Position numbers and translations under genes: made by a program. Positions 1-63,200 of a DNA stretch of 64,000 bases are shown in pieces. This DNA is from Mytilus galloprovincialis (Eukaryota; Mollusca; Bivalvia; Mytilida; Mytilidae): NCBI RefSeq assembly GCF_965363235.1, contig NC_134846.1, forward strand, positions 64,469,121-64,533,120, in the 5' to 3' direction. The notes under the pieces were generated by a model. The model was not told where the DNA came from. It did not search any database and saw only the letters and a program-made list of their open reading frames with translations. Position 1 is the first letter of the stretch. Every line of letters begins with the position of its first letter.

Positions 1-284
1 AATACTTAAAAAGCACGATTTTCATAGTCAAAAGGACTGAGAAGATACGTAGGAATTATTAAATGACCTTTTCAAGCTGTCGCAATTTCTCGTTGTCCTC
101 GAATATAAACCCTTTTCCGTGCGACTTATTTGTCTGTATGTAATATAGAGTTTTGTCATAAAAACGACTTCAAAGATGTACTTTTGTGTATAATGTTTCT
201 TACGACAAAAAGAAAAACCAATAACTCTAGAAATATTTTTAACTATAAATAGAAATATATATGGAAAGCCAAAAAAAAATATTT

Positions 285-3200: not shown

Positions 3201-6200
3201 TCTACGGAGGGCTAAGATTGTCACTTTTCAGTCAAAAAATGTCCAAATTTTAGGACAAAGGGCACAGGCTGATGGTGAGAGCCCCCTGATCTCTCAATCT
3301 TTCTAATATTTAACAGACATTTAGTCAATAGGTAGATACAAACGTGACTAAAAGGACTTTGGGTACACTTCCTGTCTTCTATGTTTACGGAGCGCCCAAA
3401 GTGCCAGTTGGATATTCAAAATATATAGCGAAAACCTACCCGAGACCGCTTAAATGAGGTTGAGACCCCCCTGGTCTTTCAATGTCCCTAAAATTCAACC
3501 AAATCATTGACTCTGTATATATAAAGATTGTATTAGATGGAGTTTCCAGAAAAACGTCATCTTCAATATCTACGGAGGGCTAAGATTGTCACTTTTCAGT
3601 CAAAAAATGTCCAAATTTTAGGACAAAGGGCACAGGGTGATGGTGAGAGCCCCCTGATCTCTCAATCTTTCTAATATTTAACAGACATTTAGTCAATAGG
3701 TAGATACAAACGTGACTAAAAGGACTTTGGGTACACTTCCTGTCTTCTATGTTTACGGAGCGCCCAAAGTGCCAGTTGGATATTCAAAATATATAGCGAA
3801 AACCTACCCGAGACCGCTTAAATGAGGTTGAGACCCCCCTGGTCTTTCAATGTCCCTAAAATTCAACCAAATCATTGACTCTGTATATATAAAGATTGTA
3901 TTAGATGGAGTTTCCAGAAAAACGTCATCTTCAATATCTACGGAGGGCTAAGATTGTCACTTTTCAGTCAAAAAATGTCCAAATTTTAGGACAAAGGGCA
4001 CAGGGTGATGGTGAGAGCCCCCTGATCTCTCAATCTTTCTAATATTTAACAGACATTTAGTCAATAGGTAGATACAAACGTGACTAAAAGGACTTTGGGT
4101 ACACTTCCTGTCTTCTATGTTTACGGAGCGCCCAAAGTGCCAGTTGGATATTCAAAATATATAGCGAAAACCTACCCGAGACCGCTTAAATGAGGTTGAG
4201 ACCCCCCTGGTCTTTCAATGTCCCTAAAATTCAACCAAATCATTGACTCTGTATATATAAAGATTGTATTAGATGGAGTTTCCAGAAAAACGTCATCTTC
4301 AATATCTACGGAGGGCTAAGATTGTCACTTTTCAGTCAAAAAATGTCCAAATTTTAGGACAAAGGGCACAGGGTGATGGTGAGAGCCCCCTGATCTCTCA
4401 ATCTTTCTAATATTTAACAGACATTTAGTCAATAGGTAGATACAAACGTGACTAAAAGGACTTTGGGTACACTTCCTGTCTTCTATGTTTACGGAGCGCC
4501 CAAAGTGCCAGTTGGATATTCAAAATATATAGCGAAAACCTACCCGAGACCGCTTAAATGAGGTTGAGACCCCCCTGGTCTTTCAATGTCCCTAAAATTC
4601 AACCAAATCATTGACTCTGTATATATAAAGATTGTATTAGATGGAGTTTCCAGAAAAACGTCATCTTCAATATCTACGGAGGGCTAAGATTGTCACTTTT
4701 CAGTCAAAAAATGTCCAAATTTTAGGACAAAGGGCACAGGGTGATGGTGAGAGCCCCCTGATCTCTCAATCTTTCTAATATTTAACAGACATTTAGTCAA
4801 TAGGTAGATACAAACGTGACTAAAAGGACTTTGGGTACACTTCCTGTCTTCTATGTTTACGGAGCGCCCAAAGTGCCAGTTGGATATTCAAAATATATAG
4901 CGAAAACCTACCCGAGACCGCTTAAATGAGGTTGAGACCCCCCTGGTCTTTCAATGTCCCTAAAATTCAACCAAATCATTGACTCTGTATATATAAAGAT
5001 TGTATTAGATGGAGTTTCCAGAAAAACGTCATCTTCAATATCTACGGAGGGCTAAGATTGTCACTTTTCAGTCAAAAAATGTCCAAATTTTAGGACAAAG
5101 GGCACAGGGTGATGGTGAGAGCCCCCTGATCTCTCAATCTTTCTAATATTTAACAGACATTTAGTCAATAGGTAGATACAAACGTGACTAAAAGGACTTT
5201 GGGTACACTTCCTGTCTTCTATGTTTACGGAGCGCCCAAAGTGCCAGTTGGATATTCAAAATATATAGCGAAAACCTACCCGAGACCGCTTAAATGAGGT
5301 TGAGACCCCCCTGGTATTTCAATGTCCCTAAAATTCAACCAAATCATTGACTCTGTATATATAAAGATTGTATTAGATGGAGTTTCCAGAAAAACGTCAT
5401 CTTCAATATCTACGGAGGGCTAAGATTGTCACTTTTCAGTCAAAAAATGTCCAAATTTTAGGACAAAGGGCACAGGGTGATGGTGAGAGCCCCCTGATCT
5501 CTCAATCTTTCTAATATTTAACAGACATTTAGTCAATAGGTAGATACAAACGTGACTAAAAGGACTTTGGGTACACTTCCTGTCTTCTATGTTTACGGAG
5601 CGCCCAAAGTGCCAGTTGGATATTCAAAATATATAGCGAAAACCTACCCGAGACCGCTTAAATGAGGTTGAGACCCCCCTGGTCTTTCAATGTCCCTAAA
5701 ATTCAACCAAATCATTGACTCTGTATATATAAAGATTGTATTAGATGGAGTTTCCAGAAAAACGTCATCTTCAATATCTACGGAGGGCTAAGATTGTCAC
5801 TTTTCAGTCAAAAAATGTCCAAATTTTAGGACAAAGGGCACAGGGTGATGGTGAGAGCCCCCTGATCTCTCAATCTTTCTAATATTTAACAGACATTTAG
5901 TCAATAGGTAGATACAAACGTGACTAAAAGGACTTTGGGTACACTTCCTGTCTTCTATGTTTACGGAGCGCCCAAAGTGCCAGTTGGATATTCAAAATAT
6001 ATAGCGAAAACCTACCCGAGACCGCTTAAATGAGGTTGAGACCCCCCTGGTCTTTCAATGTCCCTAAAATTCAACCAAATCATTGACTCTGTATATATAA
6101 AGATTGTATTAGATGGAGTTTCCAGAAAAACGTCATCTTCAATATCTACGGAGGGCTAAGATTGTCACTTTTCAGTCAAAAAATGTCCAAATTTTAGGAC

Positions 6201-9200
6201 AAAGGGCACAGGGTGATGGTGAGAGCCCCCTGATCTCTCAATCTTTCTAATATTTAACAGACATTTAGTCAATAGGTAGATACAAACGTGACTAAAAGGA
6301 CTTTGGGTACACTTCCTGTCTTCTATGTTTACGGAGCGCCCAAAGTGCCAGTTGGATATTCAAAATATATAGCGAAAACCTACCCGAGACCGCTTAAATG
6401 AGGTTGAGACCCCCCTGGTCTTTCAATGTCCCTAAAATTCAACCAAATCATTGACTCTGTATATATAAAGATTGTATTAGATGGAGTTTCCAGAAAAACG
6501 TCATCTTCAATATCTACGGAGGGCTAAGATTGTCACTTTTCAGTCAAAAAATGTCCAAATTTTAGGACAAAGGGCACAGGGTGATGGTGAGAGCCCCCTG
6601 ATCTCTCAATCTTTCTAATATTTAACAGACATTTAGTCAATAGGTAGATACAAACGTGACTAAAAGGACTTTGGGTACACTTCCTGTCTTCTATGTTTAC
6701 GGAGCGCCCAAAGTGCCAGTTGGATATTCAAAATATATAGCGAAAACCTACCCGAGACCGCTTAAATGAGGTTGAGACCCCCCTGGTCTTTCAATGTCCC
6801 TAAAATTCAACCAAATCATTGACTCTGTATATATAAAGATTGTATTAGATGGAGTTTCCAGAAAAACGTCATCTTCAATATCTACGGAGGGCTAAGATTG
6901 TCACTTTTCAGTCAAAAAATGTCCAAATTTTAGGACAAAGGGCACAGGGTGATGGTGAGAGCCCCCTGATCTCTCAATCTTTCTAATATTTAACAGACAT
7001 TTAGTCAATAGGTAGATACAAACGTGACTAAAAGGACTTTGGGTACACTTCCTGTCTTCTATGTTTACGGAGCGCCCAAAGTGCCAGTTGGATATTCAAA
7101 ATATATAGCGAAAACCTACCCGAGACCGCTTAAATGAGGTTGAGACCCCCCTGGTCTTTCAATGTCCCTAAAATTCAACCAAATCATTGACTCTGTATAT
7201 ATAAAGATTGTATTAGATGGAGTTTCCAGAAAAACGTCATCTTCAATATCTACGGAGGGCTAAGATTGTCACTTTTCAGTCAAAAAATGTCCAAATTTTA
7301 GGACAAAGGGCACAGGGTGATGGTGAGAGCCCCCTGATCTCTCAATCTTTCTAATATTTAACAGACATTTAGTCAATAGGTAGATACAAACGTGACTAAA
7401 AGGACTTTGGGTACACTTCCTGTCTTCTATGTTTACGGAGCGCCCAAAGTGCCAGTTGGATATTCAAAATATATAGCGAAAACCTACCCGAGACCGCTTA
7501 AATGAGGTTGAGACCCCCCTGGTCTTTCAATGTCCCTAAAATTCAACCAAATCATTGACTCTGTATATATAAAGATTGTATTAGATGGAGTTTCCAGAAA
7601 AACGTCATCTTCAATATCTACGGAGGGCTAAGATTGTCACTTTTCAGTCAAAAAATGTCCAAATTTTAGGACAAAGGGCACAGGGTGATGGTGAGAGCCC
7701 CCTGATCTCTCAATCTTTCTAATATTTAACAGACATTTAGTCAATAGGTAGATACAAACGTGACTAAAAGGACTTTGGGTACACTTCCTGTCTTCTATGT
7801 TTACGGAGCGCCCAAAGTGCCAGTTGGATATTCAAAATATATAGCGAAAACCTACCCGAGACCGCTTAAATGAGGTTGAGACCCCCCTGGTCTTTCAATG
7901 TCCCTAAAATTCAACCAAATCATTGACTCTGTATATATAAAGATTGTATTAGATGGAGTTTCCAGAAAAACGTCATCTTCAATATCTACGGAGGGCTAAG
8001 ATTGTCACTTTTCAGTCAAAAAATGTCCAAATTTTAGGACAAAGGGCACAGGGTGATGGTGAGAGCCCCCTGATCTCTCAATCTTTCTAATATTTAACAG
8101 ACATTTAGTCAATAGGTAGATACAAACGTGACTAAAAGGACTTTGGGTACACTTTCTGTCTTCTATGTTTACGGAGCGCCCAAAGTGCCAGTTGGATATT
8201 CAAAATATATAGCGAAAACCTACCCGAGACCGCTTAAATGAGGTTGAGACCCCCCTGGTCTTTCAATGTCCCTAAAATTCAACCAAATCATTGACTCTGT
8301 ATATATAAAGATTGTATTAGATGGAGTTTCCAGAAAAACGTCATCTTCAATATCTACGGAGGGCTAAGATTGTCACTTTTCAGTCAAAAAATGTCCAAAT
8401 TTTAGGACAAAGGGCACAGGGTGATGGTGAGAGCCCCCTGATCTCTCAATCTTTCTAATATTTAACAGACATTTAGTCAATAGGTAGATACAAACGTGAC
8501 TAAAAGGACTTTGGGTACACTTCCTGTCTTCTATGTTTACGGAGCGCCCAAAGTGCCAGTTGGATATTCAAAATATATAGCGAAAACCTACCCGAGACCG
8601 CTTAAATGAGGTTGAGACCCCCCTGGTCTTTCAATGTCCCTAAAATTCAACCAAATCATTGACTCTGTATATATAAAGATTGTATTAGATGGAGTTTCCA
8701 GAAAAACGTCATCTTCAATATCTACGGAGGGCTAAGATTGTCACTTTTCAGTCAAAAAATGTCCAAATTTTAGGACAAAGGGCACAGGGTGATGGTGAGA
8801 GCCCCCTGATCTCTCAATCTTTCTAATATTTAACAGACATTTAGTCAATAGGTAGATACAAACGTGACTAAAAGGACTTTGGGTACACTTCCTGTCTTCT
8901 ATGTTTACGGAGCGCCCAAAGTGCCAGTTGGATATTCAAAATATATAGCGAAAACCTACCCGAGACCGCTTAAATGAGGTTGAGACCCCCCTGGTCTTTC
9001 AATGTCCCTAAAATTCAACCAAATCATTGACTCTGTATATATAAAGATTGTATTAGATGGAGTTTCCAGAAAAACGTCATCTTCAATATCTACGGAGGGC
9101 TAAGATTGTCACTTTTCAGTCAAAAAATGTCCAAATTTTAGGACAAAGGGCACAGGGTGATGGTGAGAGCCCCCTGATCTCTCAATCTTTCTAATATTTA

Positions 9201-10480
9201 ACAGACATTTAGTCAATAGGTAGATACAAACGTGACTAAAAGGAATTTGGGTACACTTCCTGTCTTCTATGTTTACGGAGCGCCCAAAGTGCCAGTTGGA
9301 TATTCAAAATATATAGCGAAAACCTACCCGAGACCGCTTAAATGAGGTTGAGACCCCCCTGGTCTTTCAATGTCCCTAAAATTCAACCAAATCATTGACT
9401 CTGTATATATAAAGATTGTATTAGATGGAGTTTCCAGAAAAACGTCATCTTCAATATCTACGGAGGGCTAAGATTGTCACTTTTCAGTCAAAAAATGTCC
9501 AAATTTTAGGACAAAGGGCACAGGGTGATGGTGAGAGCCCCCTGATCTCTCAATCTTTCTAATATTTAACAGACATTTAGTCAATAGGTAGATACAAACG
9601 TGACTAAAAGGACTTTGGGTACACTTCCTGTCTTCTATGTTTACGGAGCGCCCAAAGTGCCAGTTGGATATTCAAAATATATAGCGAAAACCTACCCGAG
9701 ACCGCTTAAATGAGGTTGAGACCCCCCTGGTCTTTCAATGTCCCTAAAATTCAACCAAATCATTGACTCTGTACATATAAAGATTGTATTAGATGGAGTT
9801 TCCAGAAAAACGTCATCTTCAATATCTACGGAGGGCTAAGATTGTCACTTTTCAGTAAAAAAATGTCCAAATTTTAGGACAAAGGGCACAGGGTGATGGT
9901 GAGAGCCCCCTGATCTCTCAATCTTTCTAATATTTAACAGACATTTAGTCAATAGGTAGATACAAACGTGACTAAAAGGACTTTGGGTACACTTCCTGTC
10001 TTCTATGTTTACGGAGCGCCCAAAGTGCCAGTTGGATATTCAAAATATATAGCGAAAACCTACCCGAGACCGCTTAAATGAGGTTGAGACCCCCCTGGTC
10101 TTTCAATGTCCCTAAAATTCAACCAAATCATTGACTCTGTATATATAAAGATTGTATTAGATGGAGTTTCCAGAAAAACGTCATCTTCAATATCTACGGA
10201 GGGCTAAGATTGTCACTTTTCAGTCAAAAAATGTCCAAATTTTAGGACAAAGGGCACAGGGTGATGGTGAGAGCCCCCTGATCTCTCAATCTTTCTAATA
10301 TTTAACAGACATTTAGTCAATAGGTAGATACAAACGTGACTAAAAGGACTTTGGGTACACTTCCTGTCTTCTATGTTTACGGAGCGCCCAAAGTGCCAGT
10401 TGGATATTCAAAATATATAGCGAAAACCTACCCGAGACCGCTTAAATGAGGTTGAGACCCCCCTGGTCTTTCAATGTCTA
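285..10480 (+). repeat. Left-arm tandem array, 368-bp unit, about 27 copies
   Basis: The phrase 'cagtcaaaaaatgtcc' recurs at 285, 653, 1,021, 1,389 and so on to 10,221, an exact 368-bp period over 27 intervals. The units are almost identical by eye: one shared difference separates the first three units (gagacctccc) from the rest (gagacccccc), plus about seven private single-base differences in nearly 10 kb. The array is therefore very recently amplified or homogenised. It has no coding capacity of its own; open frames here are shadows of the repeat. The same unit in opposite orientation makes up 15,295-17,530. Copy number depends on assembly through a near-perfect repeat. Confidence 0.97.
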
Positions 10481-10720
10481 TAAAATTTAATTAAATCATA
10501 GACTCTGTATATATGAAGGTTGTATTAGAAGGATTTCCCAGAATATTGTCATATTCGATATATATATGGAGGGCTTATATTGTCACTTTTCTGCTAATCA
10601 TTATCAGAATTTTAGGACAAAGGGCACAGGGCAATGGTGATAGCCATCTAATCTCTCAATCTTTGTATTACTAAGCAGACATTTAATTAATAGGTAGGCA
10701 GAAATTATAACCTTATGTTG
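10480..10720 (+). repeat. Innermost, diverged unit of the left arm
   Basis: From about 10,480 the array sequence abruptly loses its near-identity but remains alignable to the unit. Its variants, such as 'catattcgatat', 'gggcttatattgtcac' and 'acagggcaatggtga', match the reverse complement of the right-arm units rather than the homogenised left units. It looks like a surviving original unit next to the core. Confidence 0.8.
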
Positions 10721-15294: not shown

Positions 15295-17530
15295 ACATTC
15301 CACTTTTGATACAATCTTTATATATATGAAATCTATGATTTGGTTGAATTTAATGGAAATTGAAAGACCAGGGGGGTCTCATCCTCATTTAAGCGGTCTC
15401 AGGTAGCTTTTCACTAAATATTTTGAATATCCAGTTGGCACTTTGGGCGCTCCGTAAACATAAAAGACAGGAAGTCTACTCAAGTTTATTTTATTAATGT
15501 GTGCATCTACCTATTTTTTAGCTGAAAAGTGACAATACAAGCCCTCCATAGATATCGAATATGACATTATTCTGGGCAATCCTTCTGATACAACCTTCAT
15601 ATATACAGAGTCTATGATTTACTAAAATTTTGTGGACATTGAAAAACCAGGGGGGTCTCACCCTCATTTAAGCGGTCTCAGGTAGCTTTTCACTATCTAT
15701 TTTGAATATCCAACTGGCACTTTGAGCGCTCCGTAAACATTAAAGACAGGAAGTCTAACCGAAATTCCTTTTAGTCACGTGTGTATCTACCTATTGACTA
15801 AATGTCTGCATAATATTAGAAAGATTGAGCAATTAGGGGGCTCTCACCATTGCCCTGTGCCCTTTGTCCTAAAATTTTGATAATTTTTGGCTGAAAAGTG
15901 ACAATACAAGCCCTCCATAGATATCGAATATGACATTATTCTGGGCAATCCTTCTGATACAACCTTTATATAATCAGGGTCTATGATTTATTTAAATTTT
16001 GTGGACATTGAAAGACCAGGGGGTCTCACCCTCATTTAAGCGGTCTCAGGTAGCTTTTCACTATCTATTTTGAATATCCAACTGGCACTTTGGGCGCTCC
16101 GTTAACATAGAGACAGGAAGTCTACCCAAATTCCTTTTAGTCACGTGTGAATCTACCTATTGACTAAATGTCTGCATAATATTAGAAAGGTTGAACAATT
16201 AGGGGGCTCTCACCATTGCCCTGTGCCCTTTGTCCTAAAATTTTGATAATTTTTAGCTGAAAAGTGACAATACAAGCCCTCCATAGATATCGAATATGAC
16301 ATTATTCTGGATAATCCTTCTGATTCAACCTTTATATATACAGAGTCTATGATTTACTTAAATTTTGTGGACATTGAAAGACCAGGGGGGTCTCAACCTC
16401 ATTTAAGCGGTCTCAGGTAGCTTTTCACTATCTATTTTGAATATCCAACTGGCACTTTGGGCGCTCCGTAAACATTAAAGACAGGAAGTCTATCCAAATT
16501 CCTTTTGGTCACGTGTGTATCTACCTATTGACTAAATGTCTGCATAATATTGAAAAGATTGAGCAATTAGGGGGCTCTCACTATTGCCCTGTGCCTTTTG
16601 TCCTAAAATTTTGATAATTTTTAGCTGAAAAGTGACAATACAAGCCCTCCATAGATATCGAATATGACATTATTCTGGGCAATCCTTCTGATACAACCTT
16701 TATATATACAGAGTCTATGATTTACTTAAATTTTGTGGACATTAAAAGACCAGGGGGGTCTCACCCTCAATTAACGGTCTCAGGTAGCTTTTCACTATCT
16801 ATTTTGAATATCCAACTGGCACTTTGGGCGCTCCGTAAACATAGAGACAGGAAGTCTATCCAAATTCCTTTTAGTCACGTGTGTATCTACCTTTTGACTA
16901 AATGTCTGCATAATATTAGAAAGATTGAGCAATTAGGGGGCTCTCACCATAGCCCTGTGCCCTTTGTCCTAAAATTTTGATAATTTTTAGCTGAAAAGTG
17001 ACAATACAAGCCCTCCATAGATATCGAATATGACATTATTTTGGGCAATCCTTCTGATACAACCTTTATATTTACAGAGTCTATGATTTACTTAAATTTT
17101 GTGGACATTGAAAGACCAGGGGGGTCTCATCCTCATTTAAGCGGTCTCAGGTAGCTTTTCACTATCTATTTTGAATATCCAACTGGCACTTTGGGCGCTC
17201 CGTAAACATTAAAGACAGAAAGTCTATCCAAATTCCTTTTAGTCACGTGTGTATCTACTTATTGACTAAATGCCTGCATAATATTAGAAAGATTAAGCAA
17301 TTAGGGGGCTCTCACCATTGCCCTGTGCCCTTTGTCCTAAAATTTTGATAATTTTTAGCTGAAAAGTGACAATACAAGCCCTCCATAGATATCGAATATG
17401 ACATTATTCTGGGCAATCCTTCTGATACAACCATTATATATACAGAGTCTATGATTTACTTAAATTTTGTGAACATTGAAAGACTAGGGGGTCTCACCCT
17501 CATTTAAGCGGTCTCAGGTAGCTTTTCACT
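15295..17530 (-). repeat. Right-arm tandem array, 368-bp unit, about 6.5 diverged copies
   Basis: The phrase 'accaggggggtctca', or close variants, recurs at about 15,370, 15,648, 16,016, 16,384, 16,752, 17,120 and 17,486. The period is 368 bp except for a shortened first unit of 278 bp. It is the reverse complement of the left-arm unit. Units differ from each other at many positions, unlike the left array, so this array is older or was not homogenised. Confidence 0.95.
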
Positions 17531-17840
17531 ATATATTTCTTTTATGGGCTTTCCATAAATATTTCTATTTATAATCCTAATTGTTTTCTAGAGTAATCGG
17601 TTTTTGTTTTTGTTTTTAAGAAAAATCCTGTATTAAAGTACTGTACCTCTTTGATTTTTTTTTTATTGACATTAATCTATATTACATTTAGACAAATATG
17701 CAAATTAGAAAAGGGTTTATATTCGAGAACAACGAGAATTTGCGACAGCTTGAAGAGGTCATGAAACTATCTCCTACGTATCTTATCAGTTCTTTTAACT
17801 ATAAAAATCATGCTTTTAATGTTATTAAGTATTATTCTTT
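17530..17840 (-). repeat. Outer, non-satellite part of the right inverted arm
   Basis: This stretch matches the reverse complement of 1-284 with scattered mismatches and short gaps. Shared words include 'gggtttatattcga', 'gacaacgagaa' or 'aacaacgagaa', 'cgacagcttga' and 'ctatattacat'. Base 1 of the window pairs with about 17,833, so the arm continues beyond what can be compared. Confidence 0.85.
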
Positions 17841-38307: not shown

Positions 38308-38508
38308 TGCAACATGTTTTGCAGTGTTTAGAATAAAATAAATTTTATAATAATTTTATATTACATCAAAAGATTTCTTTTAGTATAAATATGTAGCTAC
38401 AATGACATGTGCAACATGTTTTTCGGTGTTTAGAATAAAATAATTTAATGATAATTTTATATTACATAAAATGATTTCTTATAGTATAAATATGTAGCTA
38501 CAATGACC
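38308..38508 (-). repeat. Tandem duplication of the end of HGSNAT copy A exon 17
   Basis: 38,410-38,508 covers the last codons, stop and start of the 3' UTR of the gene. 38,308-38,406 is a second, slightly diverged copy offset by 102 bp. The duplicate lies downstream of the functional stop, so it would be 3' UTR. Confidence 0.9.
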
Positions 38509-41500
38509 CATAAACTTGCACCGTATAGATCTATTGCAAGTTTACTCGCATGTGTTTCTGGGACGTCCCAGCTAACTGGAAAATTCTTATGCAACAGTTC
38601 GTGTCCCATGTATACCAATATGGCATTCATACCTGAAATAATGGAGGTAATTACAAAGAAAGCTATCACATAGCTGAAAGACAACGTCTAATAAGTTACA
38701 TGCACTTAAAACCACAAATGTACAATAATTAAAAAATATTCAACAACAAAACTTGGATAATAATACAAAACAAAGGTCATCGAAGCAGAAGCTGAACACC
38801 TGGTCAAATAAAGCCATAATTAATTATAAGCTGGCGTTGAACAGTTCTAGACTTTGTGAACTAAAACCATTAAGAGTATGTTGGGAAACTCTAAACATAC
38901 TCTTACTGCTACTAAACGTCATTGCGCTATGAGTAAGGAGAATTTACTTGTGAATGACAAGTTGGTGTCGTATTTTTTTTTAACTTTGTCAAAAACAAGA
39001 TAATTTCGCATCGAATTGATACCTCATCTGGTGTGGCTTCAAATAGCGGTTTATAATTGGGTCTGCAAAGTGTTCACATCCGCTACTGTCAAAAGTTTCA
39101 ATGTTATAATTAAACAAAAATGGTTTTGACAAATTCAAAAGTTATTCCCTATATGTTAAACGATAGGATGAACATGTTTAATAACGTTAGTATGTTTGTA
39201 ACGTAGTATAATTGCTACAATCGGTTCATAACAGGATTTTTTTTTAAAAGTAAAAATTATCATATATATATTAGTGGTTACCTTCTTTATATTTATCCAA
39301 GATTTCGTCCCGTCTGGTGGTTACAGACTTTATGCAACCGATAGGTTAAAATATGATAATTGAATTATTTCCTTTATGTCATACGTACCTGGGTAATAAA
39401 ATGGTGCTCCATTCCATATTTTCCATTCATCTATCATCAAATAGCAAAAGCACAACAGAAGAAATGCAAAACCACCAAGGCAGAACACAAACGATAAAGA
39501 CCTAGAAATAACATTATAATATGAAATGTCTCCTTGTCCAGAAATTAGAGTGTGATGCTTTTCGGGTCCATAGGGGTTGACCACCCTTTAAAGTTATCAT
39601 TTTAAGCCATAAAAATTGTCAAGTTTTTTTTCTTCACATTACTCTTTCTACTCAGCAATATCTATTCTGTTTTCGACAACAACACTCAATAAAAAAATTT
39701 CCTGTATCCGCTCCTGAGATGACAAAATTGTCTTTTCCATATACGTTGTTAATGATAATTATTTTTAATCAAAAAACGTAACTCGTGAGAAACTGCGATA
39801 TGTTCAAATATAGTGTTTGATTTTGTAATAAATATATATGTTTTAATTTTCACGTGATGAAAAAGGAAATATAACACTAGTTTTTGTTACATTTATAACT
39901 AAGTTAATAAATTGACAAAACATTACCATAAGTTTTTGTTGATAGGAATCCATCCATCGTTTTTACTAAATTTACACAAAATTCCTGCTAACAGGCACTG
40001 TAAGGATATAAGAAAAGAACAGATATACATTTTACTGGATATCAAGTTAATGTCTTATAGTTTGCCAACATTGTTTTTTTTTTATTTCGAATATTTACAA
40101 ACTCGTTAGTTTCTGAATTTATCAAGTTATCCACTCTCTGAGTAATTCAAAATTTTAACGTTTGAAAAGGTGTGCGATATTGAAAAACAGCCTAATCAAA
40201 TGCACATGACTTCATACAGATTTTAGGTTTTAAAAATGGTTTTCCCAATAAAACAAACATAAAAACAGTAATGAAGAAATAATGAATGTCATTATAGACA
40301 AGAAATAACAAATCACATTTGTACATAGTAAAGTTACAAGGCTCACCACAGCAAACCCCTTATTTATATGGTTAAGTTGTAAGTTGACCAAAACAATTCC
40401 CTTATGTATATAGTTAAGTTGTAAGGTTGACCAAAACAAATCCCTTATTTATATGGTAAAGTTGCAAGGCTTACCAAAACAAACACCTTACTTATATGTA
40501 AGTTGTAAAATGTAAAATCACAAAAATACGGAACTCAGAGGAAAATCAAATCGGAAAGTCTATGATCACATGGCAAAATCAAAGTTGACAAAAAATTCCT
40601 TGTTTAAATAGTAAAGCTGTAAGGCTTCCCAAAACAAATCCCTTGTTTAAATTTGAAACGGTAAAATCACAAAAATACTGAACTCCGAGGAAAATTCAAA
40701 ACGGAAGTCCCTTACCAAATGGCAAAATCAAATGATAAAACACATCAATGAGTGGACAACAAATGTCATATTCCTGACTATAGGCATTTTCAAATGTAGA
40801 AAATGGTGGATTGAAAGTTGCAAGGTTTACAAAAACAAACCCTTATTTCTATTGTTAAGTTGTAAGGCTTTCCGAAACAATTCCCATATTTACATGGTAA
40901 AGTTGTAAGACTAAGCAAAGCAAATCCCTTATCTATATGGTAAAGATGTAAGGCTTCAAGTTACCAAAATAAATCCCTTATTTACATGGAAAAGTTGTAA
41001 GGCTTACCAAAACAAACCCCTTATTTATATGGTTGAGTTGTAAGGCTTACTAAAATAAATCCGTTATTTACATGCAAAAGTTGAAAGGCTTACCGAAACA
41101 AATTCCTTATCTATAAGATAAAGTAAGACTTACCAAAACAAATCCCTTATTACCATGATAAAGTTGTAAGGCTTACCAAAACAATTCCCCATATACAGAA
41201 TCTCATTACCCTGGCTGATCTGCTTTTGTAGGTACACAGAATTTTGCCTGCCTGAAAAAAAAAAGTTTTTATGATGAAGTTGTATGCAAAAAGTTATAGA
41301 CACTTCAAGAGAGGTGGAAGATACCAGAGGGACATTCAAACTCATAAGTCGGAAATAAAAACGACAACGCCATGGCTAAAAAAGAAAAAAAAAACAACAG
41401 ACAAACAAAACTACACCAAAAACTTGGGGTGGTCTCAGGTGCTCCGAATAAGTAAGCAGATCCTGCTCCACGTGTTGTAACCATTGGTGTATAGCTCATG

Positions 41501-44500
41501 TGAGACCAAACACAGTAATAAGTCTATTTCGGGAAGTCACGCACAAAAAGAGTGTGTTTTTGAAATATGCATCATCAGGTAAAGTCGTGATAAGATTTTT
41601 TAAAAGCCATCTTTTTAAAAGGAGTAGAGCACACACAAAAGTATCTAAACAGAACAATCGGAGTCTTTGAAGTTAAACTTTTTTAGAGGGGTTCAATTAG
41701 TTTTACCAAGCATAAGCACTTAACTTATAATTTGAAAAATAACCCCAATAAATATACCTTTTAAATTACGCAAGCAGCGGAGCATTGGCTATAAACTGGA
41801 TAGTACAAATCACATTTTGACACCGTGCGTGGAAACAGACATTACGAAACTGGTGGTTTCATATCTTAAAAAGCAAGATGCCTAAAGTGTTGTTTTCAAA
41901 TCGTTTTAATCTTAATAGTCATTGGAAATATATTCTTACTTGTAGTCCGAGAAAACATAACACACATGAGGTTAAGGTTCCAAGCAATCCTTCCGGTTCA
42001 TGTGGTAAGTCGTTGTGATAAATTTCCTAATAAAAATAAGTATACGAATAACATGTAAATAAGTATACGAATAACATTTATAAATTTGTACAGAAAAAAA
42101 ACCATAGCCCCCCCCCCCCCAGAAAATCAAATGGTTGCTGCCTAATGTGGTCTGATATTGTCTTGCATTAAGCATACACATAATTGCGAAATATACTGGT
42201 AATATTAAATGAAATTCGTATCGAAACTCGGACTACAAATCTAAAATAACAAGTAAAATCAAGTAATGGTAAGTTTTTAAAATATGACAAAACAAAACTG
42301 TACCTTACATGTAGGAGATCCGTAAATATGCTTTTCTCCGAAAACTTTTCTGTCTATATAACCCGCAGCTCCTCCGGTACAATTATATTGCTTGCCGTAG
42401 TTTTCAAGTCCTCCTGGCCCAAGGTACCCTCTAAATGTTAAAATAGACTTATTTTATCACAAGGTCTTACCTGAGACTACTATATCATATAGTAGTCTCA
42501 GATCTTAAATATTTATATCGAGGCGATATTTTAACACTAAGACAGCTGCACTAAGATACTTGTAAATTATGAAAGAGTAAATCATAAGAACAAGAAACTG
42601 ATTTTAGTGCGTGTAATGTTATATCTTGATATGTTCTAGTGGTTAACGTTGATCGCAGTTATTTTTTTTTTTTTTGTTCATAGTGGTTGTACAAATCAGG
42701 CTTTGGTTTTCCTTTTGAATTGTTTCATATTTTGTCACACCAGGTTCTTCTATTACTTACGACACGTTAATGGTTTTGCTCATTGTTGAAGGGTGAACCA
42801 TGACCTGTATTGTTCCAGTTTTTGCCCTATCATCTAAAAGAATAACTCTTACATTAAAAATCAATTTACATCTCCATTATTTTTTAATTTTTGTTTATGC
42901 GAAATGTATATAAGTTGATCGACATACTTTTCGCAACCGGTATCAACAGGTAGCAGAAAAGTCAGGCATGTATGTACTAATATAAACAAAGAAATAATAA
43001 TCCATTCCGACCAGTAGTCAGTAATATCTTTAAATCTTGTCTCTGTCATCTGAAATATATATGCTTGAAACAGAAGGAAACAACAAAAGCATGCATTTTG
43101 TTCCCCGTCCCAATCTGAGCATGGGGCGTTTCACTGATCTTTTATTCAATATATAAGGCGACACTAAACAGTAAATATTATCTTTATCGACGTATGATAT
43201 TGATTGATTAATTGTAACTTGCTTAACATCCAGCGGCAACGACGACTTTATGCAAATTCAGGAAGAAAACAAAACATATAATAAGGAGGTTTTTCAAGCT
43301 CGAATTGAAGGGCGGGAAATTGGATTTTCAAATGGTTTATGAGATTGTGCTGGATAGGGGAAAATTTACTTTGCAATGCACGAGTAACCTACAGGTCCTC
43401 GGCGTTATTAGAAGAACTTTAAAATGCAGAAAGCTTTGTAGTCACCCTTCTCGAAGCATCTGTCTTAAAGACCCCATTACTACAATTTGTGGCTTCGTAT
43501 TTCTTTATACAACGCAAACAAACGTCCACTCAATGAAAGATTTTACTGCTAGACGGGAAAGGTAAAAAAATTACCATACACCCTACCGAGTCATCTTTTT
43601 TATATATCGATATCAAGCTGTTTCCTTTCTTTACGACAACAACCATAAATCTTTGAAATGGAGCATGATTTTTTCTCTCTTGACAAACACGCTTTTTAAC
43701 AGGTTTTATACGAAACCGGGTACGAGTCACCATGTTTTGCAAATACACATTTTACTTAACACGCTGCAGTATGAAATCATATTTATACTAGATATTGTTG
43801 TATGAAAGTGTGTCTGCAGTAGTTGATAGAAAAACTATGATCTAAGGACTCAAAATATCGACATTTTATAACAATTTATGAAACCTAGTTTAAATTGATT
43901 CGTTGTTCATTTCTGTGTCATTTTGGTCTCTTGTGGAGAGTTTTCGCATTGTCAATCAAACCATATCTTCTTATTTTATAAACATGTACTAGTAGAACAG
44001 CTTACACGATAGAGAATAATAGGCAAAGAAGATAAAGAATACTGAATGAGCAAAATAAAAATTGAGAACACAGAATAATCGGGTACTCAAATGGAAAGAA
44101 TATCTGCAAACATTTAATCAAGTAGCTTCCTCTCCATCCATACCCACAAAGAACTTAATAATAGATTTCAAACAACAAGTTCATTCAAATAGTAATATTT
44201 ACGACATTGTTTACTGTATCCTCTGTTACGGAATAGGGATAATGGGAACACACAAAATAAACAATTAACTTAGTACTTTGCCTCATGTGTGTTTAACTGG
44301 TACATGCATTACCATTGATTATGCAAATTATTTTGACACAACCGTATCCAGGAGTTTAGTACCACACGTGAACACTGTGAACTTAATTACCGTATCCGGG
44401 AGTTTAGCAACAAACATGTGCACTGTGGCTGTAATGAGATAAGTAACAGCAAATCTTTGTAGAACTCCTGGTATTCTTAATTCTGTCATGTCTACAGCTG

Positions 44501-54297: not shown

Positions 54298-57200
54298 TCA
54301 TATTACAAAGAAGAGATTTTTATGGAAACAGTATAAAGCTACAACAAGCCAGATTGCAGTTCCGTAAACGTCTAGTGCTAACAGACTGCCATGGTGCTGT
54401 GGGACTCTCCAGCTGATAGGGAAGTTATGATGAAATAGTTCATGTCCCATATACAGCAGTATTGAGTTCATACCTGAAAAAATAAACCATATAATATGAA
54501 AACATTTCAAAATAAACAATGATGTTTCATGAAAAATTTGTGTCTTAAGAGGCTTAATCACTTTTCATTGATTGATTGGTTTGGTGTTTAATGCCACTTT
54601 CAACACTATTGTGCTATTTCACATCAATCAGTTTGTATAGGTGGAGGAAGCTGGAGTACCCAGACAGAACAAACAACCTATGGTAGAAAAACTGACAATC
54701 CTAGTCAATTAAGATTGGAGTTGGTTGCACCTATCCCCAGCTGGATTTGAACTCACAACATCAGTGTTGACAGGCTAGTGAAACAGAAGATCAACTACTT
54801 AGACCACTCGGCCACAGAGCTAACAAATTACATTACAAAAGTGCACTTGATCGGACATAACTTCTTAATGACAAAGGGGATTTCAACTCAAAAATATATT
54901 TACAGGAATAAAAATTTCTTTCTTTGGAAAACTTTGCATATTTATAAACAGCTTGATTTCTACCAGTATTTTACTGAAAAACACAATATTATATGATAAT
55001 TATATAATTTATTACAAATATTGGCCAAACATAAATCTCAGTGATAATTACAGTAAGTATTATTTATCAAAACTGGTTTTTATTCATAAATCTATTTTCC
55101 TAGAAAGAGTAAAAAAAGTTATAATTTGTAAGATCTAATTCTCATTTAATATACTGCAGATACCATTCCTGTTAGTCAGAAATCTACTACAAATGCAAAA
55201 ATAATGGAAGGAACTTTTATAAAACATCTAAAATGATGTCTTCTGTGTGAGCCAAGGCTCTGTGTTGAAGACAGTACTTTAACCTATAATGGTTTACTTT
55301 TACAAATTGTGAATTGGATGGAAAGTTGTCTCATTGGCACTCATACCACACCTCAAAATATCTATTGTAGTTCTAATAAAGAATATTCAACGTAGAGACT
55401 TATTTGTCTGTATCATTTAACTAGTGATGTTGATTTGAAGTCTTATTGATGTTAAAATAAATCTTCATTAGTTCATATTGTCTTCATATAAAGCAATGCT
55501 TTGCTTGGATAACAGGACTAGACTAACACATGGCATTTTTTTATCTTTGGATGCAGTGATGTAGGATAACAACAATTCTCTGCTGATTTATGTATTGTGT
55601 GGAAGAGTTGAAAAGTGAATCCCGAGATATTTTACCATTTCTATTCTCAACTTTGATTTAAATTGTATAATTTTTTTTTGACATACTTTGTATCGGTACT
55701 GAATGTTCAACGACCAATCATGATAACAAATAAAAATCCAGAAAATCTGCATCATGACATCACAACTGTGTTTATAACAAATTAATTTAGAAACGTAGAA
55801 TTAGACAGATGAAGCTGGTAAATGCATTGTATGCTTTTAAAGTGATATAAATTTCAAAGTTTAAATAAATACTTTTTAAGTTTGAATTTCATATTTCTGT
55901 TGAGCAAAATTAATTCAAAATTGCTGTTGTCTGAAACAGATAAATCTTAATGTTGGTGCCAATAGGAAAATTTCAAGGGTGTGTTCACAAAGCCTATGGT
56001 GCTTAATCTTTTTACAATTTCTTTTACAGTAGACCAAATAGTGGTACGACCTGGACTGTACCAGCTTAGTGTGCTACATCAGTCTATGGTCAGAAGGTCT
56101 TTTCCAACTTTGGAGTTTTATAGCCAACTTTTTTTGATAAAGGTTGTAGCCATCAGTAAAACATACTGTGTAACCTTTGTAAAAGTTAATTTACATCAGT
56201 ACAAAACAATTTACAGAGATGCTTCTTTTACAAATAAATGTACATGTAACTTAAGTTGAAGTACTCAATGAATTCAGAAGACTATTTATTACACTGGCAA
56301 CACTAAACAAAAGCAGATGATTAAGGAATACAATAGAATCACCACAAAAAGTGGATAATTCGTGTTATTTAGTTTTAAGCAATGCAAGGATATATGCATG
56401 TTATATGATGTATTGTGTATTTAACTTGAGAGATGTGCATGGGGATAACAAAAAAATGTATTTTACTATGAACTGATGAGCTTTTCATATAGTAACAAAG
56501 ATCTTTCTTTCATGCATCTCGTATGTAAAATAACACCAGAACAAAAATCCCCACACATCCATTGGCAGAAGTCGACTGTGTGTCTCGGATACATAAAATC
56601 CAACAGGAAAATAAGTTTGGAATGTCTCATGGAACATGTAAAAGCTGATAGAATTCATTCCTGTGTAAACATTAACCACAATATCATATATTTGTTGTTT
56701 TTTTACATAAAAAAAACAAAAATCATTTTATACAGCTTACCTTGTACAGTATAGAAAAGAAAGGGGAGGGACAAAAGTAACAAATATGTGGGTTACATTA
56801 AATGTAATAAGTGTCTATCAATGTATCAAAATAAGAGTCTTTTATATCTAAATTTGACTTATATGTTTGCTTCTAAAATATCACACACAAGTGTTATAAT
56901 CTTTTTTCTTTTTATGATAAGTATTTTTCTGACAGTGTCTTTTGAAAACATGACCAGAATTATATCAGTGTTTCAAGAAAACTATAAGATTAAGTGGTTA
57001 TATATGTGGCTGAGTGTCTTTTCAATCTGAATTTCACATATATATATGATTGCTTCTAAAATATCATCCAGGTGTAATGTTTTCTCTGCAATCATACCAC
57101 ATCTTCTTTTTTTTATATGATCAGAACTTCTTGTTTCAATAATGTTTTTTGCAGTATTTTTCAGATGTTCATTTATCTGACAATGTCAAATGAATAATGG

Positions 57201-60200
57201 TGAACTCCTTTTTTGCTTACTGCCTATAACATAATGGAAGCAATTCTACCATTGCTTTGAGAACATTACTTGATCTGTAATTATTCCTTTGATGAATTTT
57301 AGAAGAAGATATTAACTATGTAATTACCTGGATAATAAAATGGTGCACCATTCCAGAGTTTCCACTCATCTATCATCAGGTAACAAAATGTTAATAAAAT
57401 AAAGGCAAATCCTCCAGTACAGAATATAAATGACACTGACCTACAAATACAGACATTTATAATGAAATATGTCAAATCAAAGGAGTCAGACGTAACATGT
57501 AACACAAGTGTTGAATGCATGCAAAATTCAAACTAAGTATTACCTAGCAAACCACATTTTAAATAATCATCTGAGTTTGTGAAAAACTTTAATAAGTGTG
57601 AATCACTATTAAATGGTAAAAATACAAGATCTATTAACCTGTCTGAAAAAAATTAAAGAAGGAAAAGCAATTGCAAGTTTTAAATTTTGAGAACCTGATA
57701 CTGTCATATTTTTTGAATAAACAAAAACATCTCAATAATTCCTGAATTTACAGTAGATTTCTATTATTCAGCTTCTATACTTATATGTCAGTAGAACCCA
57801 CCATAAAGCCCATGGACAAACAATTTAAAAAAGATACCCTTTAATGGTGAAAACAATCAGGCCTAGTTCACTTATGCAATTTCTCATATTTTCTATAAAT
57901 TATTACCTTTTCCCCAACATTTTGAAGAGGCCTGGCATAGCTATAAAAAAAATTGCAAACTTACCATAGGTTTTTATTGACCGGAATCCAACCTTCATTT
58001 TTACTAAATTTACAGAGAATTCCTGCTATAAGGCACTGAAAAAAGTATATTGAAAACAAATTATTCTTCATAAATTTAAGCATCAGAATTAATCTTTATG
58101 TAACATGAAAATTTAAATATCCTTTTTAAAATTTGACAGGCTCAATCGTTTCTTAACATAAAGATTTAATAAGATTTACATAAAATTTGACAAAAAAGTC
58201 AAAGACACAAAATATCCTGAATTACATTTTTTTACATTTTTGAATTCCTATAATGGCTATTAATCTGGCTTTGTGAATTATAATATTTTTGCTTGACAAT
58301 ATGATCTTAGTTAGACTTATCATGCTTATTGTAAACATTACCAATGCAAATCCCCATATGAGGAGTCTTTTAACTCTCTGTTGTCTGTTTTTAAATGTCA
58401 TAAAAATTTTCCCTGCCTAAAAAAATAAAAAATATTTCTATAATAAAATAGTATTGTTACACCACAGTGAATACACAAAGTAACATCATCTAAAAAAAAA
58501 ACCCAAAAAACCCATTCAAATCAATGATGCCTATGGCTTCTGAAATATATTCCCTGTCAGTCTTCCTAAAAGTCAAACATTTAAAAAGACTTGTCTAAAT
58601 AAGACTTGAAAATTGACATTTTTATGGATATTTTTTCTGCAATAGCATTGGTTCTAATTCTGTAGGTTGATGACATTTTCTTTAAAATAGTTGTGGGTTT
58701 AATTTTCCTGAGGTATCCTCCTTTATTTGCAGTGCATTTCATATAATTTTTGTTTCAGTTACTAGATTTTTAATAAATGAATAATAGTTTGGTCAAACTC
58801 TACCTATACTGCTCTGAAGTTAATGGAATTCTGCAAGATCACATGTTTTTTTTTTAAATATTTTTCTAATGATTGTTCTACAGTGTCACTTAGAATATAA
58901 TATTTATAATCAATTACAGGAGTCGGTTTCACAAAAAAATTTAGATTGATCGTAAGTATACTGAAATGTTCATGACTTACAACCAATCTTAGTCGTCAGA
59001 TTTTGTGAAATAGATTCCTGGTCTTTTGAAAAGTGAAATAAAGTAACAGATAAACAGAGTTAACATTCAGATTATTATTCAAAGATTTACCTGCAGTCCA
59101 AGGAAACATATAACACATGATGTCAGTGTTCCAAGTAATCCCTCTGGATCATAGGCTATTGTGTTTTTATAGATCTCCTGAAAAATGTTTGAAAAATCAT
59201 TAAATTACGATAGACACATCAATCTCTCAGTATGGTAACTTTTGAATATACCATTAATCAGTAAACAAACATGCAGCATCTTATAGGGTAAGAAAGAAAC
59301 AACTACATGTTGAGAATAAGAGATGGTGGCATTTATTTAGTAATCTGTATTTTGACTTCATTGATTTTTTTTACAATTGCAGAGGATAAATAGGATCAAT
59401 AAAATTGTCTGAGTATTTCAAAAACACAATTTTATGTGGACTGCTGCTATTGCAAAGCAATTTAAAACGAAGGTCCAAAGTAACAGTATTTAGTAAAACA
59501 TCAGACTAATAAAAGTGATCCATCTATCAAATATTATTTGCACATGAAATACAAAATGAAGGTGCTTATACAACTGCAAACCAAATATACTTGACATTGG
59601 TGGGTCCCCTGAAAACTGACCTTATCACAAACTTCAGCAACTTAAAAGTATATTTAAAATATGACGGAACTACTTTTGATTTGGGACTCTAATAGATGTG
59701 ATCTGATCCAAATATTTCTTTGCCTATATATCCATACATAAAGCAAATTATATTAACAATATAAAGTTAATACCTTAGACGTAGGATTTTGATAAATGTG
59801 ATCTAAGCCAAAGATTTTTCTGTCTATATATCCAGAAGCACCACCAGTACAGTTGAAATGACTGCTATTTTCTGATAGTCCTCCTGGTCCTAAATATCCT
59901 CTGAAAAAACATAGAGATATGTATACACTGACTTTGAATAATAGAAAAATCTAAAACTCTGAATTATAGAAGAATCTAAAACTCTGACTTATAGAAGAAT
60001 CTCAAAACCCTCAATAGCAGAATCTAAACTGTGATATAGAAAAATCTAAAACTCTGAATTACAGAAGAATCTAAAACTCTGACTTATAGAAGAATCTCAA
60101 AACTCTCAATAGCAGAATCTAAACTGTGATATAGAAAAAATCTAAAACTCTGAATTATAGAAGAATCTAAAACTCTGAATTATAGAAGAATCTTAAACTC

Positions 60201-63200
60201 TGAATAGCAGAATATAAAACTCTAAATTATAGAATAATCTAAATTCTGAATTATAGAATAATCTTGAATTCTGAATTATAGAAGAATCTTAAACTCTAAA
60301 TTATAGAAGAATCTTCAACTCTGAACAGCAAGATCTAAAACTCTGAACAGCAAGATCTAAAACTCTGAATTATAGAAGAATCTATAGCCCAGAATTAAAG
60401 AAGAATCTAAAATTCTGAATCATAAAAGAATCCTATGAGATTATATGAGAAGTTAAAGTTCTAAGTTATAGAAAAAATCTAAACAAAAATTTAATTTACA
60501 GGCAACAGAAGGATAGATGTGTATCAATGTGCTTTAGTCATTTGTTCTTGAAATATACTTACTTAGGACAGCCAGGAACATCTAGTCCAAACATGAGAAT
60601 ATAATATATTCCAATGAAGAGAAAATTAATTATCCATTCTAAAGGATAATCTGTGATGTCTCTAACTGGATTGGTACGAACGGGCTGAAATGGAAAATGA
60701 GATGAAAGTAAAGAAAGACATGAAAGACATTATAATGATTTAATTAAACATTTAATGGTACACTAAAAAAAAAACTGAAGTGTCATAAGTTTGTTTTATC
60801 ACAACTGCAGAATACATCCCTTAAACATGTAAAATTTCAAAATAGTTAGTGAAAATAAAATGCTAAAATTTCTAAATAGTAAGTGAAAACAATTGTTTAT
60901 GAATTTGGTACATCCAAAGCACTTTTAAGGATTAAACTTCACCAGGAATGCTCAAACCCAAACATTTGAAATTCATATTCAGTATGTGTTAAAACCTTTA
61001 TATATAGAATACATTTTTTACATAATCACATCATAATGAACATATACTGTACTAATTTTTGACTTGATGTCACCACAACTTCACGGTAGACTACTTTAAA
61101 CTAAAACCTTATTCTACTTGAAAGCAACTATAACTTTTACTTGATATCGGAAAGTTTTTATTTTTCTATTGATTGGTAGATTTTTTTTCTAGAGGATGGA
61201 TAGATACACAGACCATAAAACATAATATTTACTACTATTGCAGTCAGGGCATACAAGTGTTATATATCAACTGGGAAGCAAAAATAATATCTTAACAAAT
61301 TGTTTGAAAAGTAATACATATTTGTTAATCTCCATTTTAGTAGATTTTTTATATTAATTGATTTAAAACTTACAGTATTTGGACCATCTTCTAGTTTTGC
61401 AAAGAACATATGTAGAGTGGCTGTTATCAAATAGGTTCCTGCAAATCTTTGTAATACTCCAGGCATACGAAATTTGGTAAGTTCAACAGCTGCAAAACAA
61501 ACATTTATATATATCATACACAAATGTATCTGTATTTACATCCCCCCAAACAGTATCATTAAATGAAAAGAGAATAACAAGTAATGGTTTACACCACAAT
61601 CTATATTTCAAACAGGTAAATATAATTTAACAATATACAATTATTGCCTCAATATGCTGTAAGTTTTCTCAATAGAATTGTTTCATATTTTTCATGTTGG
61701 GGTCCTTTTTGCTTACTAGTAAATTAGTAAGGCTGAAGATAAAAGTAAAGTCCACTAGGGGACAATTGTATTGTTTGTCCCAAGCAAGAAGTTGTCTCCC
61801 TAAACAAGATGTTTTTGCAAAAACAATTAAATACGGTAGTCTGATATATGTAAGATAAAATAAGCGTAGTTGTCCTAGGACCTAAATGCCAATATACTTA
61901 GTCTCCTACTGATTTATGAGACTGTGAAGACACTTAATCTCCAAATTTTATCAAATACACGTCTGGCGTACTAAATTATAACCCTGGTACCTTTGATAAC
62001 TGTTTATCAAATATTTGTTACTTTAGGATTTTATTATTTTTGGTAATAAGTTTAACCTATAATCTAGTTTTAACATATAAAAAAAGATTCTGAAACCACA
62101 TTGAAGAACTTAAATGCCTTATATATCCTTCCTTACCATTGCAGCCCTCAGAGTTGATGACTAATCCCAACACAAACAGTATACAAGATCTCTTAAATAT
62201 CTTCCAGAACATTTTATATTTAGGTGTGTTAGATCTCAGTAAGCTTGTGTAAGAATATGCCATGGATGTTCCCATTATAAATACAAACCTGAAAAAGAGT
62301 AGACATAATATGTAATAACATGGTTTTAAGTCATAGTTCTTATCATTTCTATATTCAATTTTATATAAAAATAGATATAAAAAGCAACTGACAATGATTA
62401 TAACAAAATTGATGAAACTTTAAAACTATCTTTTCAAACATTGAATTTATAAGGCATAAAAAATGTATAAAATGAAGTTCTTTTAAACATGTTACTACTT
62501 TTCTTCTAAATATGCAAATTTCCATGAAAAGATACATGCATTTTTAACTGTTCTACTGAAAAATCAATTGCGATAATTTGACTGTAAGGTGTTTAGTTTA
62601 ATCAATGCAAAATATGTACCAAGATGAACATTACTATAACTTAACTGAAATTTGATGATAAATTTGATAAATCATATTCAAGAATTCCAGTTATAATTCC
62701 ACCTCATGTATTAATGCTGTCTTTTGATTGGATGAAAGACATGGTATTTTTCACAAATTTTCTATTTATTGGGATTTTTTTCTCTGCCGGGGAATTTGTC
62801 CTTAGGGAATTCCATGTGCCGGGGAATTTGCTAGCAAATACCATGGCAGATGGGAAATACCCTAGCAAATACCATGGCAGATGGGGAATACCATGTCTAA
62901 AAATAACTCAATGAATTATTTCTATTCTAATATGACAAATTCATGGTCATTCTAAATATATGGTTTCAGATGAAATATTTAGGATAAAAAGCATCATTAT
63001 TGAATTTGGAGCGAATGACGTAAAAATTCCGCGAATGACGTCATAAATAAAATTCAACGGAACTGAATTGTCAACCGTCACATACAACTGGAATCCACTT
63101 GTATTACGCTTCACTGAAACTGATGAACAAAGTGTAGAAGTCAGCCGAGAACCAGCTTATTATCATAAAAAGGGAGATATATATACAGTCAGTGACTGTA

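Follow-up and report, generated by a model that had tools for sequence, protein, structure and literature searches.

The window, a stretch of 64,000 nt of the Mytilus galloprovincialis contig NC_134846.1 (forward-strand positions 64,469,121 to 64,533,120), contains two tandem HGSNAT-like genes, as indicated by comparison of their reading frames, here called copies A and B. A third HGSNAT-like copy, C, is located on another contig (L019). Copy A was identified via solved HGSNAT structures, and the joined peptide of its exons 12–17 aligned to positions 446–662 of human HGSNAT with an E-value of 3e-69. A search of the genome with the Pfam family HGSNAT_cat gave no match, presumably because the exons are short. 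Exon numbering is that of an earlier note on this DNA.

Exon 14 of copy A (41177–41251, minus strand) is 75 nt long and encodes 25 aa. It was related by tblastn to the homologous exon of copy B (58342–58416, minus strand), with 56% of the 25 aa matching. Its normal splice partner is exon 15 (39926–39997, minus strand, 24 aa), and the exon 14/15 splice in copy A is supported by homology to human HGSNAT. Intron 14 measures 1179 nt in copy A, 306 nt in copy B and 360 nt in copy C. Several other features were observed in the window. A second HGSNAT-like last exon (56488–56727, minus strand) lies between exon 16 of copy B and its other last exon, and is a possible alternative end of copy B. Two 101-bp tandem copies with 91% identity (38308–38507) span the boundary between the last coding exon of copy A and the sequence that follows it, and a 25-bp array of about 21 copies (59931–60432) ends shortly upstream of the acceptor of exon 12 in copy B. 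Positions 282–10697 are occupied by a large array with a 368-bp unit (28.3 copies, 99% match), and another array of period 368 is found at 15515–17538.

The 43-bp array at the end of exon 14

A tandem array of 43-bp units spans the exon 14 donor and intron 14 of copy A on the minus strand. The earlier note had described the end of exon 14 with its donor as being repeated about 14 more times, at a spacing of roughly 43 bp, between 40330 and 41251. That the array adjoins and includes the 3' end and the donor of exon 14 was confirmed by TRF and by anchoring the units on the donor motif. The limits had to be corrected, as the array runs from 40324 to 41189 and positions 41190–41251 are the remainder of the exon. 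Thirteen donor-anchored intronic units and one remnant were recovered, which is close to the number proposed, and the steps between them are indeed 40–49 bp, with the exception of two steps that measure 155 and 201 bp and contain fragments of a dispersed repeat. As in a minisatellite, TRF found head-to-tail units of one length, with a period of 43 in 8.7 copies at 40814–41189 and in 4.2 copies at 40331–40508, and a composite repeat of period 149 (40438–40732) between these two blocks. Together with its inserts, the array accounts for 853 nt of the 1179-nt intron.

The units were anchored on the donor motif and read on the minus strand, which is the sense strand of the gene. Unit u0 (41147–41189) is composed of 13 exonic and 30 intronic bases and lies across the authentic donor (GTAAGC, with its G at 41176), so that the array starts at and includes the authentic 5' splice site. 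The exon-proximal block u1–u8 (40814–41153, minus strand) comprises eight intronic units with donor-like positions at 41133, 41093, 41050, 41007, 40964, 40915, 40872 and 40830, the last unit being shortened by the dispersed repeat. Unit u9 (40607–40649, minus strand) is flanked by two dispersed-repeat fragments and displays GGAAG at its donor position (40629). The exon-distal block u10–u13 (40324–40494, minus strand) has donor-like positions at 40474, 40431, 40388 and 40346. The remnant of a further unit (40586–40606, minus strand) reached 6.0 bits, with an E-value of 0.78 by itself. GTAAG is intact in five of the 13 intronic units (u1 at 41133, u2 at 41093, u3 at 41050, u4 at 41007 and u10 at 40474), as the earlier note had stated with its minimum of five. 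The eight others read GTAAC, CTTAG, GAAAG, GTAAA, GGAAG, GTCAA, GTCAA and GTGAG. GTAAG alone is not strand-specific in intron 14, with eight sense and 12 antisense occurrences; GGTAAG is, with five against none. With up to three mismatches allowed, the window holds 13 occurrences of TTGTTTTGGTAAGCC, and all but one of these are in the array (shuffle mean 3.57, largest value 8). For TTGGTAAG, the sense strand of the intron gave four occurrences, where shuffling gave a mean of 0.03.

The reach of the homology into the exon was determined with a profile built from the 13 intronic units, the exon being left out, and scored against a background of 126,052 positions outside 40300–41260 on both strands. 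The score of the exon A tail peaked at 20.0 for 13 bases and fell with longer tails. Positions outside the array equalling the exon tail numbered five at 10 bases, none of the 126,052 at 13 and none at 15, followed by two at 18, 57 at 22 and 420 at 30 bases. A model made from the 13 intronic units only detected the exon-straddling unit with 40.7 bits (E 9.8e-12), in a match covering 41154–41189 or 41155–41189 that starts at 41189, the same base as the limit given by the profile score. The peak at 13 bases and the start of this match define the unit as 13 exonic plus 30 intronic bases. The exon homology of about 22 nt previously claimed was therefore rejected in favour of 13 nt (41177–41189, minus strand), as the score declines beyond position −13 and 57 outside positions are as good at 22 bases against none at 13. 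Over these 13 exonic bases, 12 are identical to the consensus of the intronic units, and the repeated unit thus includes the exon tail. Whether the units align to the end of exon 14 better than to random sequence was the test on which the earlier note had staked its claim; it was run with the model and the profile, and the exon end stood out from the background in both.

A 26-base pattern searched with up to three mismatches in the 1.38 Gb genome gave eight matches, all of them in the array and on its strand, and none with the reversed control. This pattern catches just eight of the 14 array units and its counts can be low, so that diverged copies elsewhere could be missed. All three genome matches of a 204-base query were likewise at the array locus. 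The array thus appears to be locus-specific, no second place having been found in the one assembly searched. The dispersed repeat is no part of the 43-bp unit. Its shortened copy inside the array (40661–40815, plus strand as searched) yielded 3008 first-look candidates in the genome, of which 40 were scored, and nine copies that were fetched share a common start with it and continue past its stop. A second, partial copy of the same repeat (40499–40583, plus strand), 79% identical to 40648–40732, belongs to the period-149 composite; its presence there points to growth of the array after the repeat had been inserted.

Direction of copying and age

The tandem sister gene was said in the earlier note to lack the array, which holds true: the intron of copy B is 306 nt long, against 1179 nt in copy A, and no unit was found in it. 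With the unit model, this intron yielded nothing beyond the match to the exon tail and matches no higher than 1.3 bits. No unit was detected in the 9901 bases around intron 14 of copy C either, where the model produced three matches not exceeding 4.1 bits, all outside intron 14. A further locus carrying an HGSNAT-like last exon (L020) displayed neither an exon 14 nor a unit, its best match reaching 5.7 bits.

Copy B, although it carries no array, ends the homologous exon with a similar coding tail, GGGATTTGCATTG. At 13 bases a single one of the 126,052 outside positions reached the score of the copy B tail, and this one is the tail of copy B itself. At other lengths the signal was less sharp, with 67 positions as good at 10 bases, eight at 15 and 28 at 18. 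With the exon-free model, the exon border of copy B came 17th among the 49 matches with E-values up to 10 (its own being 0.91), behind 15 array matches and one chance match. Random synonymous tails matched as well in 2098 of 20,000 cases for the peptide of copy B and in 152 of 20,000 for that of copy A. Shared coding explains the resemblance of the copy B tail at least in part, given that 2098 of 20,000 synonymous tails equal it. The array accordingly carries coding-derived sequence, which makes exon-to-array the better direction. The consensus of the units (GGA TTT GTT TTG) contains the Phe codon of copy B where exon A has ATT (Ile). From these comparisons, copying from the exon into the array appears the likelier direction, and the origin of the array at the exon border may be regarded as well supported.

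The mean difference between units is 0.23 (range 0.07–0.38), against 0.53 at four-fold sites between copies A and B (30 of 57 differing). These values and the array-free copy B agree with the proposal that the array arose after the two genes had split. Birth after the split would fit the divergences, with the proviso that an array whose units exchange sequence can appear younger than it is; loss of the array in copies B and C, in place of a gain in copy A, is formally conceivable. No clear homology of the intronic half of the unit to intron 14 of copy B or of copy C emerged. When this half was compared with the intron of copy B, shuffles reached the observed score in 45 of 2000 cases for u0, 161 of 2000 for the consensus and 897 of 2000 for u13, and one of seven control introns outscored the copy B intron.

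Predicted strength and decay of the decoy donors

The nearest decoy donor, in u1 (41133, minus strand), reads TTG/GTAAGT, lies 43 nt beyond the true donor and outscores it. Predicted U1 pairing was strongest for u1 (−9.1 kcal/mol), followed by u2 (−8.2) and u13 (−8.1); the true donor, u4 and u10 were at −8.0, and the other eight units at −5.0 kcal/mol or weaker. A position weight matrix (PWM) built from 14 further donors of the two tandem copies gave 6.0 for the true donor, 9.7 for u1, 6.0 for u4 and u10 and lower values for the remaining ten units, the training donors themselves ranging from 5.8 to 11.2; both scoring schemes are small and home-made. By PWM, seven of the 68 intronic GT sites outscore the true donor, and u1 is the sole unit donor among them. 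The six others are 40715 (9.7, in the dispersed repeat), 41153, 40491, 41071, 40985 and 40893. The decoys at 41007 and 40474 are identical to the true site across a 15-base motif. Masking of the decoys by RNA structure was considered and found unsupported, as the predicted local accessibility (probability of being unpaired) was 0.004 at the true donor and 0.000–0.037 at the decoy positions and does not separate them.

Beyond the true donor, the frame of exon 14 meets a TAA that ends 27 nt into the intron. All 11 sites considered (the ten unit donors bearing GT and 40715) would take in this common premature in-frame stop. Site 41153, which is outside these 11, precedes the stop, and the 23-nt extension that it would produce is out of frame.

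Selection on the donor columns of the array found no support. Their mean divergence (0.154) is slightly higher than that of the other columns (0.123), and 31 of the 38 six-column windows have a lower divergence than they do. With the mean divergence of those other columns as the yardstick, 6.8 intact GTAAG would be expected against the five observed in 13 units, and 10.0 intact GT against ten, so that GTAAG is intact no more often than expected under neutral decay. In the column alignment, from which a 6-column insertion was removed, u5 also reads GTAAG, and the true intact count is five of 13. The earlier note had left the choice between neutral growth of a minisatellite from an exon border and a role in tuning splicing. 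In regulated alternative donors, the donor motif would be better kept than the rest of the unit, the products would keep the frame and the arrangement would be conserved in related genes. Here the motif is not better kept, a stop is gained from each of the 11 sites and the array is absent from the introns 14 of copies B and C. A tuning role is thus unsupported, in view of the lack of conservation of the donor columns and of the in-frame stop, and neutral growth is the better supported of the two options; the growth of the array is most simply neutral.

Proposed history, alternatives and known systems

Very probably, the array is a minisatellite that was born at the exon 14/intron 14 border of one HGSNAT-like gene, was interrupted by a dispersed repeat and has been decaying neutrally. 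Its start would have been a tandem duplication of a 43-bp segment across the border, which took the donor and some 30 intronic bases along with 13 bases of the exon. In the first copy, the exon body and a working donor would have been retained, and the mRNA could thus stay normal. Later unequal exchange or slippage may have produced the array of about 14 units, into which the dispersed repeat would have been inserted, a part of it being amplified with the neighbouring unit. The units would then have diverged as neutral sequence, with the consequence that most former donors were damaged. To judge from the reading frame, the spliceosome would mostly use the exon-proximal donor, its choice being guided by position and exon context. 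A certain amount of leakage to the +43 site is likely; transcripts spliced there would contain the premature stop, and nonsense-mediated decay should eliminate them.

Two readings would give the array another origin or another role. The array could be an unrelated intronic satellite or mobile-element repeat adjoining the exon by chance, in a window with many tandem arrays (34 TRF rows) and with pieces of a dispersed repeat inside the array itself. This is highly improbable, considering that the exon-tail match exceeds chance at 13 bases, that the dispersed repeat is separate from the 43-bp unit and that all eight pattern matches and all three matches of the 204-base query in the genome fall in the array, no second unit-bearing place having been found (strongly diverged copies could escape). 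The ladder of decoys could also act as a splicing rheostat, in which competing donors lower the output of copy A through premature stops and the copy number sets the level. Five of 13 decoys keeping GTAAG, a +43 decoy predicted above the true donor by U1 pairing and by PWM, and the stop arising from all 11 sites would suit such a device, as would the donor-bearing VNTR of human ABCA7, the length of which alters exon 19 skipping and expression (PMC5954066). We consider it improbable all the same: the donor columns show no excess conservation, GTAAG and GT being kept no more than expected; the PWM is unspecific, with a unit donor as just one of the seven GT sites above the true donor; accessibility does not set the true donor apart from the decoys; the array is broken by the dispersed repeat; and it is missing from the two other paralogues whose intron 14 can be read.

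A third reading is compatible with the preferred origin at the exon border and regards the array as one instance of a recurrent duplication of exon edges into the downstream intron. It was addressed by a survey of 19 donor and 21 acceptor edges of copies A, B and C (threshold score of 20 or more). A downstream sense copy was detected at four of the 19 donor edges (A 44390, A 41176, B 59773 and C 5230) and an antisense copy at none, and no acceptor edge of the 21 had an upstream duplicate at this threshold, one reaching 18.3, barely below it. The least expected observation is a series in intron 12 of copy C (L019 5247–6355), where the exon 12 tail and donor recur in five decayed copies in sense orientation, at 5247–5333, 5333–5470, 6111–6166, 6169–6255 and 6261–6355. 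They score 29.1–46.5; the highest of 200 shuffles reached 23.3, and the antisense 13.9. GT is kept in all five where the donor would lie, and one of them extends back to the exon start. Copy B has one decayed copy of the exon 12 tail (59674–59754, minus strand; 35.0 against a shuffle maximum of 28.3), and copy A contains a 30-nt duplication of an exon tail across the donor 44390 (44331–44410, minus strand), which is in frame and ends at GTTGTG. Against recurrence, when these genes were tiled into 1337 windows, 147 of the windows had a downstream sense copy too (24 of 1337 an antisense copy), so that the excess at donor edges is not clearly above background. Moreover, no exon 12 duplicate was found in copy A, and the difference between donor and acceptor edges has a p-value of about 0.04 (one-sided, hand arithmetic) in one gene family. 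Recurrence in this family is therefore a tentative proposal, with perhaps a minor chance of being correct, and the wider idea that the 3' ends of exons and their 5' splice sites are repeatedly and independently copied into the next intron as a genome-wide mutational habit is more doubtful still. If recurrent copying were true, it could provide raw material for alternative donors and tandem exons.

Tandem repeats that include exon borders are known from human genes, among them a 31-bp VNTR in CBS (primary report: Lievers 2001). Designated c.1444_1467+7(16_21), it occurs in 16 to 21 copies and is polymorphic in people (PMC2630376). Reading its name, the unit would consist of 24 exonic and seven intronic bases, and exon tail and donor are repeated as one unit as in copy A. 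It differs from the mussel array in these proportions (24 + 7 against 13 + 30 bases) and in that the CBS passages mention no insertion of a dispersed repeat, of which copy A has one. The VNTR in intron 18 of human ABCA7 has a 25-bp unit in about 12 to 427 copies, and the array starts at the exon 18 donor (PMC5954066). Splicing at the donor of the next unit gives an out-of-frame transcript, and retention of one unit, at 2 ± 1% of transcripts, is independent of VNTR length, while longer alleles accompany exon 19 skipping and lower expression (PMC5954066). Like the array of copy A, it begins at an authentic donor and has units carrying a donor. The ABCA7 unit, in contrast to that of copy A with its 13 exonic bases, opens with the two bases of the donor and has no exonic base, and the effects on splicing and expression were measured there.

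Internal tandem repeats at exon–intron boundaries have also been described in duplicated human genes (PMC2812944). Such repeats differ between paralogues, as they do among the HGSNAT-like copies; however, those paralogues are recent and near-identical and some gained novel introns, whereas copy A shows no new intron. In the RdRp gene of potato, an intron was gained through tandem duplication across an intron–exon border (PMC4974935). Duplication across the border copied splice signals, as in copy A; it took place at an acceptor border and created a new intron, in contrast to the multi-copy array at the donor border of copy A. The canine LHX3 repeat was set aside as a precedent, as it is a 7-bp repeat acting through intron length (PMC3223203). 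No mussel array of this kind was met among the literature titles searched, a scope from which most subscription journals were excluded.

The array of copy A belongs to the known exon-border repeats that bear donors, of the type found in CBS and ABCA7, and suggests that such repeats arise in other animals too. It offers a natural and clean test of how the spliceosome chooses among near-identical donors, with a +43 decoy that is predicted to be the stronger one, and the exon 12 series of paralogue C adds a hint of recurrence to this interest.
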